NCBI GenBank assembly: GCA_947500575.1 | Contig: CANMSI010000002.1 | Location: 806,001-870,000 of the forward strand | Length of the DNA stretch: 64,000 nucleotides | Source: an uncultured Flavobacteriaceae bacterium | Lineage (GTDB): Bacteria > Bacteroidota > Bacteroidia > Flavobacteriales > Flavobacteriaceae | Reading direction: 5' to 3' | Shown here: in pieces, positions 35,614 to 41,567 of the stretch | Position numbering within the stretch: the first letter of the stretch is position 1 | Layout: each line of letters begins with the position of its first letter | Notes under the pieces: generated by a model | The model's database searches: none | Told to the model about the DNA's origin: nothing | Seen by the model: only the letters and a program-made list of their open reading frames with translations | Translations under genes and position numbers: made by a program

Positions 35614-36675
35614 TTACTTCTTTTGTTGAGTTGGAATATTAAAAGGTTGATTTTTCAAAATGGCATTTATTGCACGATTTAGATCCCACAATTTGTAATT
35701 TGCATTATTAGTTAATAGGATTACCGTTAACCCATTTTCTAAATTATAATCTATTATGGACTCATAATCAACATTGGAGCCTGATGCCTGATGCCTGTTT
35801 ATTATACCGTTTTTAACTTTAGTAAACCCAAGTGAAGATTGATTACTGTTTTTATGCTTAAGAGGTGTTCCCAGAACATTTATGGACTTTTTTGATATAA
35901 TTTTTTCTGCGTAAAGTCCCCGAATCCATTTATATAAATCATCAGTTGTGGTATAGGTTCCACCATCCATTTGATAGATTTCTTTATAGTTGACTCCCTC
36001 ATTATTAAATCCCGTAGCAAATTGAGAAGTTTCCTTTGTGGGCGAAAGAAAGGTGTTTTCCATTTTCAATGGCAAGAGAATATGCCTACGTATATATTCA
36101 TTAAATGATATTCCCGATATCTTTTCAATAATTAATTTTCTTATAAAAACATTGTTATTGCTATAAAGAAAATCAGTTCCTGGTTCGAACTCTAATTTCT
36201 CTATGTTTTTTAAATCAGTGTACACATCTTCATTAGTTCTCACGCTATCCCAGTCATATTTAGGCAAGCCGCTGGAGTAATTTAAGAGATGACTTACTTT
36301 TATTTTCTCAGCCCAACTAGGTAACCCTAAATTGAATTTTGAGATACTATTATCTATACTCAATTTTTTTTCCTCTACAAGTTTCATAATACTAGTAGCA
36401 CTTAATTCTTTTGAAATTGAACCGATATTAAAAACCATATTTGGTTCTAATTTTTTTGTCTTGGAACCATCTGTATATCCCAAACTCTTTTTATAAATAA
36501 TACTATCATTTTTGATGACAAGAATGCTTCCATTGAAAAGCCCTCGATTAAATGTCGTTAACACTAAAGAATCAATAGTGGTATTGTTTGTTGGTTCTAT
36601 TAATATCTTACGTTTAGCATCATTACACGAAGAGAATGTCCAAAAAATACAAAAGCAGTAGTATGCATATTTCAT
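35614..36675 (-). CDS. Serine hydrolase of the beta-lactamase/PBP4 family, lipoprotein
   Basis: The 353-residue protein begins with a lipobox-like leader (TFSSC, Cys17). The serine nucleophile is in SISKELS (S-x-x-K), a Y-S-N motif lies further in, and a HQASGSN segment takes the place of KTG. Domain size and order match the class C beta-lactamase-like hydrolases. It is six bases from the following GIN-domain gene's end. It is one of three such hydrolases in the element. Substrate is unknown; beta-lactam resistance should not be assumed. Confidence 0.8.
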   Translation of the reverse strand: MKYAYYCFCIFWTFSSCNDAKRKILIEPTNNTTIDSLVLTTFNRGLFNGSILVIKNDSIIYKKSLGYTDGSKTKKLEPNMVFNIGSISKELSATSIMKLVEEKKLSIDNSISKFNLGLPSWAEKIKVSHLLNYSSGLPKYDWDSVRTNEDVYTDLKNIEKLEFEPGTDFLYSNNNVFIRKLIIEKISGISFNEYIRRHILLPLKMENTFLSPTKETSQFATGFNNEGVNYKEIYQMDGGTYTTTDDLYKWIRGLYAEKIISKKSINVLGTPLKHKNSNQSSLGFTKVKNGIINRHQASGSNVDYESIIDYNLENGLTVILLTNNANYKLWDLNRAINAILKNQPFNIPTQQKK

Positions 36676-38209: not shown

Positions 38210-40390
38210 TTAATCAATAGCCTGCAATATAAATTCAGGAATCATCTCATTTGGTGGAGTCTTCTTTCCAAAGAGTAAATAAGAATTGTAGTTTCCACCA
38301 GTAAACACCGTAATCATATTTAATTCTGGCCAAATGTTGATTTTTTGGCCCCCATTGCCCGAAGCTTGATATGAACTGTATCTTTTTCCATGAACATCAA
38401 AATGTTTTCGATACCATAGATAGCCATAATCACCTTGCTCCATACTAAAGCCTTTAGTAATCCAACTTTCGGAAATGATCTGTTTACCTTCCCAGTTTCC
38501 CCCATCTTTATACATTTTGGCTAATTTTAAGAGGTCTCTAGAGGTAAGGTACATTTGACTAAAAGTGTTTATACTCGATTGATTCGGCTCAAAAGTCCAG
38601 TCATAATTTGATATGCCCATAGGTGTAAAAAGATTGCGTTTCGCAAAAGTCTCTATATCTTCATTTGAAGTAATTTCCACAAGGCTTCCTAAAGTAAGTG
38701 CACAACCTGAGCAGTAAGAAGAAAATTTTCCGGGGCTTGCAACCATTGGAAGGTCAAGCGTGTTTTTCACCCAATCCCTGCTTTGCATCATTGCTATTTC
38801 GTTTCCTTTGCTCTCGGAATTTGCGTCTTCACAATCCAATCCATGGCGATACATTAAAAAATCTTCGACAGATTGCTCTTTTTTCCTTTCATCTAGATTA
38901 GCAATTTTTGGATATTTGTCTTTGAAATAGGGTAGAATCCTATCTTTTTCACTTTTAATGAGACCTTGGTCAACCGCTATACCCACAATTCCCCCAATAA
39001 ATGATTTTGAAGCAGACCTTAACTGATGAGGAGTATCTCTATTATATCCATAAAAATATTCTTCGAGAACCAGCTTGTCGTTTTTATAAATTAGCACACT
39101 GTGAACCTCTGGAAAACTCCCTTTAATTGTTTCCTTTACCATATTGATTATCGGGTCGGGATTTACGAATTCGTCGTTTAAAAGCCCCGTTTTTAATCCA
39201 TCACTAAGTTCTTTTGGTTTCTGATATTGGTAATCATCGGGGTTGTTAAAAAGTTCTCTTCTTGGATACATTTCCATTTTTTTGACCCTAGCGGAAATTA
39301 ATTTAAAAGTCTGTTCGTCAGTTACATAATTTATGACTTTATTAGATCCATTCCTGTTGAATACAATAGAGGATCCTTGCATATCTTGGAAGTTGTCTAA
39401 AGCGATATATTTTAATGGATACTTCGCTTGATTTATTACCGCATAAAGTGTCGTATCCAGTTCAGAGGCCTTAAGCTCCAGCGTGGTATTATTGATATAT
39501 TCATATTTCCCTTCATAGTCCAAAAGTGTTTCATATTCAGTTTTTTTGCTATGATTAAAGCTATTTCTATCTTTTATGCCGCTCTTAAACTCACCATAGG
39601 GGTTATCATCTGTCAATAAGAGGCCGTCGCCTGGTGTCCATTTGTCATACTCTATATCATAGGCCACTTTTTGGGCTATATTAAAACTCTGGGTCTTTGC
39701 CACAAGATGCAATGCACCATCAATACCTGCAGAAATACCTGCTGTGGTTATAATTTTCCCATTGTCCACGTACCGTACATCTCTTAATACTCTGGTTTTT
39801 GGATAATCCTTTTCGAGTTGATTTAAAGCAGAATGAAAGGTAGTTGCAGTTTTGTGTTCCAACAACCCAGCTTCGGCTAGGATAAATGCCCCTGTGCAAA
39901 CAGAAAAGTAATATTGAATGTTTTCTTGGTTTCTTACCCAATCGATGACTTCCGAATCTTGATAAGCTGTAGCGGCATTACCTCCAAAAAAAGCCAAAAT
40001 ATCAGCCTTTGGGGCGTTTGACAAAGCATAATCCGGAACAATTTTCAGGATTCCTTGTGAAGTTATAGTATCTCGTGTTTTGGAAACAGTAAAAACTTTG
40101 AACCCCGCGTATGAAAACACTTCCATAGGGCCTGCAAAATCTAAAACTTCTACACCGTCTTGTAAGTAGAAGGCAATTTTTTTGTGCTGATTAACATCAT
40201 TGGCTTTTTGCTCATCTTTGTGAACTAAATTCATGTTACAGTGGCTACACGTTCCTGGTTTTTTAAAGGTAAGTGTATCACATGCGTTATTACAGGGAGG
40301 ACATACATACACTGGGCTTGATTCAAGGTTTGTCTGTGACAGAAGAGTTTTAAGGGTAAACAAAAAAATGAGGCTGAATCTGAATTTCAT
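38210..40390 (-). CDS. Secreted fusion: metal-binding domain, DJ-1/PfpI domain, serine hydrolase
   Basis: The 726-residue product has a signal peptide (residues 1-19). Then comes a Cys-rich zinc-ribbon-like or heavy-metal-binding domain (YVCPPCNNACD and PGTCSHCNMNL), and a DJ-1/PfpI domain (about 70-270) with the nucleophile elbow SVCTGAFILAEAGLL. A DUF3471-like beta domain (about 285-370) precedes the serine hydrolase part (about 410-726), where SASKSF supplies S-x-x-K and SGNGGQ the third motif. The parts are all recognisable, but the fusion is unusual. The DJ-1 part shares its nucleophile motif with the GlxA-type regulator 80 bp upstream. Catalysis and substrate are unknown. Confidence 0.8.
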   Translation of the reverse strand: MKFRFSLIFLFTLKTLLSQTNLESSPVYVCPPCNNACDTLTFKKPGTCSHCNMNLVHKDEQKANDVNQHKKIAFYLQDGVEVLDFAGPMEVFSYAGFKVFTVSKTRDTITSQGILKIVPDYALSNAPKADILAFFGGNAATAYQDSEVIDWVRNQENIQYYFSVCTGAFILAEAGLLEHKTATTFHSALNQLEKDYPKTRVLRDVRYVDNGKIITTAGISAGIDGALHLVAKTQSFNIAQKVAYDIEYDKWTPGDGLLLTDDNPYGEFKSGIKDRNSFNHSKKTEYETLLDYEGKYEYINNTTLELKASELDTTLYAVINQAKYPLKYIALDNFQDMQGSSIVFNRNGSNKVINYVTDEQTFKLISARVKKMEMYPRRELFNNPDDYQYQKPKELSDGLKTGLLNDEFVNPDPIINMVKETIKGSFPEVHSVLIYKNDKLVLEEYFYGYNRDTPHQLRSASKSFIGGIVGIAVDQGLIKSEKDRILPYFKDKYPKIANLDERKKEQSVEDFLMYRHGLDCEDANSESKGNEIAMMQSRDWVKNTLDLPMVASPGKFSSYCSGCALTLGSLVEITSNEDIETFAKRNLFTPMGISNYDWTFEPNQSSINTFSQMYLTSRDLLKLAKMYKDGGNWEGKQIISESWITKGFSMEQGDYGYLWYRKHFDVHGKRYSSYQASGNGGQKINIWPELNMITVFTGGNYNSYLLFGKKTPPNEMIPEFILQAID

Positions 40391-40470
40391 AAACCGATGA
40401 TTTAATTATGAAATGTAAAGCTATAGCAAGAAAGGAATTTCTAAAAGGACAACCGTGCGCAGGATAAGGA

Positions 40471-41412
40471 CTAATTTTTTAGCGATGATATATCCATAGG
40501 TAGAATATCTCTATGTTTTTTTAGAAGGTAACGCAATTGATTCACGCTTTTTAAGCCACATTCTTCCGCCACTGTATGTACCTTATGACCATTAGATAAA
40601 AGGGCTATCGACTTCTCCACTCTTAATTTTTGAAGGTATTCACCTATAGTTATGCCTGTAGTCCGCTTGAACAATCTGGTAAGGTTTCTTTTGCTCATAT
40701 TTACCTTATCCGCCAATTCTTCATTGGTCGGTGCATTTGCCAAATTATTCATTAAATAGTCCTGAGCATCGTGTATTCTATGATTCAAATGATTTCTAAA
40801 TTGAAGAAAAATACTTAGCTGGGGGTCAGAAGAGCTTCTTCTAAAATAAATAACAACTTCCTTGGCAATGTCAAGTGCCATTTTTGTTCCAAAATACTTT
40901 TCTACAATAAAAAGGGAAAGATCAATGCCCGAAGAGACTCCAGCACTTGAATGAATATTCCTAGAGCTTACGAACAACCTATTTCTCTCTAACTCAGTTA
41001 ATGGAAATCTCTCAGAAAATTCCCTGTAGTACTTCCAATGTGTCGTACAGCTGTTTTTATCTAAAATGCCCGTTTCAGCTAAAAGAAAACTCCCCGTACA
41101 AACTGAGCATATATCGGCACCATTCTTATTCTGTTTCCTGACCCAACTAAGAAAAGGAGATATGCTCTCACGAAATGTGACATCAGAAAGTATACCATAC
41201 TCCATTCCCGGGATGAAAAGTATATCGTTTTCGGTTAATTCAAATTTATCAAAAGGCTCCAATCGATTAAAGTAAAGTCCTGCACTGCTCTTTATTTCAG
41301 TCTCATTAATAAGGGATATGAAATGTAGTTCCAAAGGTGCTCCAAATTCCTTTGCTTCATAAAAAATATGGGCAGGTCCGTTGATGTCTAAAAGATGGAC
41401 CTCCGGAGGCAT
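40471..41412 (-). CDS. GlxA-type transcriptional regulator (DJ-1/PfpI plus AraC HTH)
   Basis: The 313-residue product begins at the first standard start (ATG 41412) with an N-terminal DJ-1/PfpI domain (LLDINGPAHIFYEAKEFG; SVCTGSFLLAETGIL) and ends with an AraC-type HTH (MSKRNLTRLFKRTTGIT, VAEECGLKSVNQLRYLLKKH). Homologues usually start about seven residues earlier with a Met-Lys-Lys strand. In-frame upstream codons read I-K-K-A-L-F-V, with ATC (41433-41431) where Met is expected, so the true start may be lost or non-canonical. Gene order suggests it regulates the fusion gene. Confidence 0.82.
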   Translation of the reverse strand: MPPEVHLLDINGPAHIFYEAKEFGAPLELHFISLINETEIKSSAGLYFNRLEPFDKFELTENDILFIPGMEYGILSDVTFRESISPFLSWVRKQNKNGADICSVCTGSFLLAETGILDKNSCTTHWKYYREFSERFPLTELERNRLFVSSRNIHSSAGVSSGIDLSLFIVEKYFGTKMALDIAKEVVIYFRRSSSDPQLSIFLQFRNHLNHRIHDAQDYLMNNLANAPTNEELADKVNMSKRNLTRLFKRTTGITIGEYLQKLRVEKSIALLSNGHKVHTVAEECGLKSVNQLRYLLKKHRDILPMDISSLKN

Positions 41413-41567
41413 AACAAAGAGGGCTTTTTTGATAGGAAGAGAATTTAATTTGAAAATTAGTGAAAATATTGCATTTAATATTATGATATGCCTGAAATAT
41501 AATTCAGGATAAATTTTAGGATGTGTTCACTTCGTAATCGAATAACAAAAAATAGGCTTGCAGAAAT

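Follow-up and report, generated by a model that had tools for sequence, protein, structure and literature searches.

A predicted exported DJ-1/serine hydrolase fusion and its neighbouring GlxA-type regulator in a Flavobacteriaceae genome: a candidate Bacteroidota cassette

Introduction

The genome of an uncultured Flavobacteriaceae bacterium (assembly GCA_947500575.1) encodes, within a 64,000-nucleotide stretch of contig CANMSI010000002.1 (positions 806,001 to 870,000 of the forward strand; hereafter the window), a 726-residue protein in which an HMBD domain, a DJ-1/PfpI domain, a beta domain and a serine hydrolase domain are joined in one frame. Directly upstream lies the gene for a GlxA-type regulator that possesses a DJ-1 domain of its own. 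A preliminary description, made from the sequence alone, had proposed that the regulator controls the fusion gene. Here, we describe a comparative analysis of this locus, which points to a regulatory cassette that is conserved in Bacteroidota and whose exported DJ-1 enzyme is, in this genome, fused to a hydrolase. No description of this cassette was found among the titles and abstract openings listed by searches of an open-access library. Throughout, G numbers denote genomes (G000 being the source genome, with the window locus) and L numbers denote loci.

Results

The fusion gene occupies positions 38210 to 40390 of the window on the minus strand, which also carries the regulator, operator and promoter features described below. 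The four-part architecture claimed in the preliminary description is present in a single open reading frame (ORF), with the HMBD, DJ-1 and hydrolase parts recognized by Pfam, and an AlphaFold2 model built from 48 aligned rows has a mean pLDDT of 89.5. Residues 1-22 (40325-40390) read by eye as a signal peptide, in which no lipobox was seen and whose residues 3-17 form a helix in the model; from this signal peptide we infer that the protein is exported. The HMBD domain (PF19335; residues 27-58, 40217-40312) scores 25.2 bits against a cut-off of 23.6, and several of its relatives score under that cut-off. HMBD domains are metal-binding N-termini, as in CusB-like proteins, and usually bear the motif CPMH; the window domain has C-x-P-C in its place. 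It contains five cysteines (C30, C33, C37, C48 and C51), and both the five cysteines and a C-x2-C-x-M-x-L core were found in 17 of 17 HMBD-like domains compared.

The model of the DJ-1/PfpI domain (residues 70-250, 39641-40183; Pfam DJ-1_PfpI at 70-230, 79.9 bits against a cut-off of 26.6) matches the isonitrile hydratase InhA of Pseudomonas (isocyanide hydratase, ICH; 3NON, 6NI5) with a Z score of 27.9 and a root-mean-square deviation of 1.4 over 180 residues, tied with 3mgk (Z 27.0), while DJ-1 falls well below. Residues D84, C165 and T166 align with Asp17, Cys101 and Thr102 of ICH, in which the threonine next to the nucleophile also has a role, and all three are invariant in the 8 aligned members of the cassette described below. 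The fusion differs from ICH in its signal peptide (read by eye), its HMBD domain and its fused hydrolase. On the tree, ICH falls together with sec_G335 and sec_G237 (96/90); the fusion sits in a separate clade of 27 rows, to which ICH is not the sister.

The serine hydrolase domain (residues 386-726, 38213-39235) is matched by the Beta-lactamase family (PF00144) at residues 431-695 (56.6 bits against 27), and its model shares the fold of Lsa45 (Z 35.8), PIB-1 (32.0), EstG (31.0) and NylB, the 6-aminohexanoate-dimer hydrolase (30.8). S459-x-x-K462 and Y559 align with Lsa45 and NylB, in whose type of hydrolase the S-x-x-K and tyrosine are catalytic, and a GGQ stands at residues 680-682. Both enzyme halves of the fusion keep their active-site residues. 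Unlike Lsa45, PIB-1, EstG and NylB, the fusion carries a beta domain and a DJ-1 domain ahead of the hydrolase; in the known enzymes such domains come after the hydrolase domain. The beta domain itself (residues 281-385, 39236-39550) is of the serine-hydrolase accessory type, as judged by identity comparison and Foldseek. The preliminary label "DUF3471-like" is fair as a likeness: homologues L045 and L068 match DUF3471 at 15.3 bits, below the cut-off of 29.3, and the top Foldseek rows for the modelled domain are serine hydrolases or related enzymes (7spn, 6ksv, 8fek and 1ei5, E 0.003 to 0.06), followed by lipocalins at E 0.09 and above, with no row reaching 0.001. Formal membership was not borne out, the fragment 275-390 having no Pfam match at E ≤ 1, DUF3471 (PF11954) included.

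No second instance of the full four-part order was seen among the matches listed for samples of relatives (60), family (397), order (395), class (395) and phylum (395). These samples overlap and count the source genome, and cut-offs were strict, with at most 2 candidates per genome scored in one search and at most 6 in three others, so absence from them is not proof that the fusion is absent elsewhere. The parts do occur apart. HMBD-DJ-1 proteins, alone or with a beta domain of their own, were found in G372, G329, G381, G399, G105, G104, G841 and G1376. A scan of the source genome's contigs with six short peptides returned one hydrolase relative, and this genome encodes a stand-alone beta-plus-hydrolase protein of 463 residues that is 63% identical. 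In other genomes of the family, HTH_3 and DUF4870 precede the hydrolase part in G199 (L041, by Pfam), and G307, G123 and G372 are alike by sequence; in G359 it lies behind an HMBD-like stretch alone (below the Pfam cut-off), and the hydrolase relative in G194 contains stops and was read in pieces only. At L041 (221-2197), and also at L042, L043 and L044, HTH_3, the DUF4870 membrane helices and the beta-plus-hydrolase part share one frame with a lipobox-like stretch. Compared with seven hydrolase-linked counterparts, the window beta domain shows 46-66% identity in six cases and 35% in one (L051); with four DJ-1-linked ones the figure is 30-36%. Because the window domain is closer to the hydrolase-linked domains, the fusion join probably lies ahead of the beta domain, at about residues 265-285.

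The regulator gene (40471-41412; 313 residues) is upstream of the fusion gene across a gap of 80 bp (40391-40470), as previously noted. Its product matches DJ-1_PfpI at residues 7-171 (49.9 bits) and the AraC-type helix-turn-helix (HTH) family HTH_18 at 233-306 (54.1 bits), each exceeding its cut-off, an arrangement that it shares with regulators of the GlxA/FtrA type. The top NCBIfam match is FtrA, at 155 bits against a cut-off of 425; the window regulator is unlike FtrA in scoring far below this cut-off and in being tied to an exported DJ-1 enzyme and to a specific direct repeat. The regulators of G372, G381, G105 and G104 start with an ATG about 7 codons ahead of the point where the window regulator has its first ATG (the region 41410-41433 of the window, minus strand). 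In place of that earlier ATG the window reads ATC, G329 and G1376 read ATT, and in these three genomes the peptide encoded ahead of the first ATG or TTG resembles the N-termini of the other regulators. It is possible that the regulator uses an AUC or AUU start codon, which in the window would lie 7 codons earlier, at 41433.

The nearly identical nucleophile motifs reported for the fusion and the regulator, SVCTGAFILAEAGLL and SVCTGSFLLAETGIL, were both found, but their use as a sign of a shared ligand is rejected. S[VI]CTG is present in 38 of 44 DJ-1 domains compared, including isonitrile hydratase and a Clostridium protein; these rows were excised by a search for similar motifs, and 3 of 47 rows and 2 proteins of the source genome yielded none. 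The SVCTG motif is common in this DJ-1 branch, though not universal, and being generic it is no evidence that enzyme and sensor bind the same molecule. We also reject a recent duplication, from regulator sensor to exported DJ-1 protein, as the source of their likeness, since on the tree the 13 regulators fall into a single clade (100/97) that is separate from the enzymes.

The linkage of regulator and exported DJ-1 gene is maintained across genomes. Where the DJ-1 domain is at least 61% identical (10 loci, the window included), a regulator lies upstream on the same strand in 9; eight of these are adjacent, with the ORFs as called overlapping in L072, and the ninth is 3.5 kb away (G104). Among loci below 50% identity a regulator was found at 4 of 24, for which 3 of 23 is the fair figure because L147 was fetched for its regulator. 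A search with the regulator alone (344 family genomes, E ≤ 1e-45) returned eight genomes: G000, G072, G104, G105, G130, G272, G310 and G329. Since G372, G381 and G399 bear the regulator yet are missing from this list, they probably lie outside that sample. The two partners also branch alike on one tree: the fusion pairs with G372 both in the DJ-1 enzyme set (100/93) and in the regulator set (100/98), as does G105 with G381 and G104 (99/89 and 100/100, respectively); the G329 regulator was left out of this tree.

A TTGTCCT doublet with 21-bp spacing was first spotted by eye in the intergenic gaps of nine loci and is described by the 31-mer TTGTCCTnnT-N11-TTGTCCTTTT. In the window this predicted operator, the direct repeat TAGTCCTTAT-N11-TTGTCCTTTT, occupies 40443-40473, its first copy overlapping the stop codon of the regulator gene. 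In every one of the 11 cassette loci the best 31-mer match is directly 3' of the regulator, and TGTCCT of the second copy is invariant. When 3 mismatches are allowed, 11 of the 14 loci with a regulator have a match just downstream of it and none has one in the 300 bp upstream. Both G104 and G310 carry the site although outside the nine discovery loci, G310 having been found by its regulator protein alone; in G104 the genes that follow the site lie on the same strand as far as the HMBD-DJ-1 gene, 3.5 kb away. With leave-one-out matrices the site ranked first in 10 of 11 loci, the exception being G072, because its repeat spacing is 18. The G272 site, located between the genes for the regulator and the DJ-1 protein, has the highest matrix score at its locus (22.1).

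In the 4.2-Mb source genome the composite pattern at up to 3 mismatches has 1 match, against 0 in a reversed control, a test that is not independent because the pattern was built from all eleven sites. The window site is the sole 31-mer match in this genome with one mismatch. Against Markov shuffles of 200 kb, 8 matches with at most one mismatch were seen where 0.0 were expected, and 2 with two mismatches where 0.16 were expected. The classes with three (13 against 2.5) and four mismatches (62 against 24.9) also exceed expectation, and the Markov null is for that reason too mild. A second operator-like match within a gene was seen in G381 (L070, position 7226, plus strand), scoring 20.1 against 41.8. 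Autoregulation through the 31-mer is not supported: for the 14 regulators, the best matches within the 300 bp ahead of the gene have 4-7 mismatches.

The predicted operator reaches a candidate promoter. Nineteen bases past the repeat, TAnnTTTG occurs in 6 of 11 cassettes (G329, G381, G399, G105, G104 and G310); it comes one base early in G072 and deviates in G000, G372, G1376 and G406. The predicted -7 box of the window is TAGCTTTA (40416-40423), one mismatch from TAnnTTTG, and the whole candidate promoter reads TTTT-N19-TAGCTTTA against a consensus of TTTG at -33 and TAnnTTTG at -7. That consensus for Bacteroidetes is given in a passage of PMC6847099, and the -7 box appears also in a part of PMC9723704. 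The last four bases of the repeat coincide with the expected position of the -33 box. A count of E. coli-type promoters in the region (27 against 23.0 expected) was uninformative. Taken together, the kept linkage and the conserved repeat lend comparative support to the proposal that the regulator controls the fusion, through the neighbouring predicted site; binding itself is predicted.

Of the 11 cassettes, 6 have a hydrolase partner, either fused or encoded no more than two genes downstream. In G000 the fused partner is Beta-lactamase and in G072 an alpha/beta hydrolase (below the Pfam cut-off). The adjoining downstream gene encodes a Peptidase_S9/alpha-beta hydrolase with an HMBD-like start in G399, an HMBD plus alpha/beta hydrolase (the hydrolase match below the cut-off) in G406, and Beta-lactamase with DUF3471 in G105; in G310 the second downstream gene encodes Beta-lactamase. 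The fused hydrolase of G072 and the separate HMBD hydrolase beside the DJ-1 gene of G406 are 43% identical (E 3e-83). Elsewhere the neighbours are a C1 peptidase (G372), a transporter-like protein (G329) and a DUF2911-like protein (G381), the latter two by eye, and a second DJ-1 followed by an M61 peptidase (G104); G1376 has none on that strand.

Exported DJ-1 proteins and HMBD-like domains also occur in other contexts. The 772-residue protein of G1358 (L115, 6458-8776) joins an HMBD-like start, a DJ-1 domain and a BNR propeller, and the exported DJ-1 of G1427 (L117, 6464-7387) has a C-terminal YHS domain (43.1 bits, cut-off 30.3) in place of an HMBD at the N-terminus. At a second G399 locus (L077, 4387-5760), a protein with an HMBD-like start, membrane helices (by eye) and an AraC HTH at its end adjoins an exported DJ-1 gene; in G142 (L075, 13219-14001), a protein with an HMBD-like start and membrane helices (by eye) lies 6 kb from a DJ-1 gene, its frame ending at the locus edge. 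These two may represent a membrane one-component metal sensor. A further serine hydrolase near the fusion (window 35614-36675) is 38% identical to one encoded just downstream of the G072 cassette (L074, 4610-5668). PADLOC, run with a defence system in mind, gave no match for five proteins.

Discussion

We consider it rather probable that the locus belongs to a conserved Bacteroidota cassette in which a regulator switches on an exported DJ-1 enzyme, often along with a hydrolase that is exported too, the two enzymes being fused in this genome. The cytoplasmic GlxA-type regulator would sense a small molecule through its DJ-1 domain and bind the direct repeat, which has a 21-bp spacing and extends to -33 of the next promoter; it would activate, rather than repress, the gene for the exported DJ-1 enzyme of the isonitrile-hydratase branch. 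In the source genome, HMBD and DJ-1 would derive from the cassette and the beta and hydrolase domains from a separate line of secreted hydrolases, now one protein. The DJ-1 cysteine may attack the substrate first, and the serine hydrolase may then cleave the product, an ester or amide.

A number of observations weigh against this proposal. The full fusion is known from a single genome. The DJ-1 gene of G841 (61%) has no regulator within 14 kb, G310 combines regulator and site but has no ORF for the DJ-1 enzyme, and G972 has a regulator and no site (best 7 mismatches). Degenerate sites are found in G272 (5 mismatches) and G130 (4). Nine of the 11 loci served to spot the motif by eye, and all eleven, the window included, went into the composite pattern, so neither offers independent evidence. 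The plain 31-mer at up to 3 mismatches is unenriched, with 92 matches in the source genome against 143 in the reversed control and 2 in the window against 1.1 expected. Background matrix scores reach 20.1 (L070, within a gene) and 12.7 (L079); G272 barely exceeds background, given the L070 score, and G406 (3.9) and G130 (6.1) are not above it. The count of hydrolase partners (6 of 11 cassettes) is a raw one, uncorrected for chance. The partners span several families, the alpha/beta matches of G072 and G406 lie below the Pfam cut-off, and five cassettes (G372, G329, G381, G104 and G1376) have no hydrolase partner. The preliminary description had itself regarded a fusion confined to this genome, beside a regulator that is not conserved, as evidence against its proposal; in the genomes searched the fusion is found only here, and the regulator is conserved.

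The fusion might instead have arisen when two exported proteins, each with a beta domain, merged by chance and without harm, with no common pathway and with a regulator that serves the DJ-1 gene alone. This explanation, which we judge possible though not likely, accords with a fusion seen in one genome among those searched, with the separate existence of each half (the source genome retaining its 63%-identical stand-alone hydrolase), and with the presence of the hydrolase module on HTH-DUF4870 and HMBD-like stretches as well; beta domains follow both the DJ-1 and the hydrolase lines, which would make merging easier. However, exported DJ-1 has other fusion partners elsewhere, a probable alpha/beta hydrolase in G072 and a BNR propeller in G1358, other cassettes have hydrolase neighbours (again uncorrected for chance), and the active-site residues are kept in both halves.

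We are similarly doubtful that the exported DJ-1 protein acts in stress as a glyoxalase, a deglycase or a peptidase-like enzyme, with a cassette that repairs or clears damaged exported molecules. NCBIfam matches to DJ-1 glyoxalase III and PfpI, far below cut-off, would fit such a function, as would the peptidases (M61 and C1) and serine hydrolases found close to some cassettes, but the acid of the active site is an Asp, like that of isocyanide hydratase, and the top matches in both sequence and fold are isocyanide hydratase and 3mgk, well ahead of DJ-1 itself. Finally, HMBD-like stretches also head hydrolases (G359, G399 and G406) and membrane proteins encoded close to exported DJ-1 genes; among the stretches run through Pfam, the one from G406 alone exceeds the cut-off. 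Together with the YHS domain of the G1427 DJ-1, these stretches might suggest that HMBD-DJ-1 is a non-catalytic binder or metal-loaded accessory delivering a ligand to the hydrolase or the outer membrane, an idea made improbable by the conservation of catalytic D84, C165 and T166 in 8 of 8 aligned cassette members.

Within the proposed cassette, our boldest guess is that the exported protein disarms isonitriles. Isonitrile hydratase yields an N-substituted formamide, which an amidase can cleave, and a formamide deformylase was reportedly described by Fukatsu in 2004. In the hydratase, as a passage of PMC10971408 has it, Cys101 attacks the isonitrile to give a thioimidate, with Asp17 as the acid. 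On this reading, HMBD would bind a metal, the DJ-1 domain would convert an isonitrile to the N-formamide, and the hydrolase would release amine and formate, while the regulator would sense the same isonitrile with the pocket of its DJ-1 domain and induce the gene through the TTGTCCT repeat. Isonitriles can chelate copper, according to a part of PMC9600254, which would give the HMBD a role. This chain is attractive but unproved, and we hold it to be a long shot; ICH is not the sister of the fusion clade.

The analysis supplies a group of exported DJ-1 enzymes, for which no assigned substrate was found, with a dedicated regulator, a candidate operator of 31 bp and a candidate promoter. The operator candidate simplifies screening for an inducer with a reporter, and an inducer would in turn point to the substrate. 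If the isonitrile chain holds, the cassette would represent an exported route for the breakdown of metal-chelating isonitriles. More generally, the fusion of exported DJ-1 domains to varied partners and to metal-site domains such as HMBD and YHS suggests an extracytoplasmic chemistry that is yet to be described.

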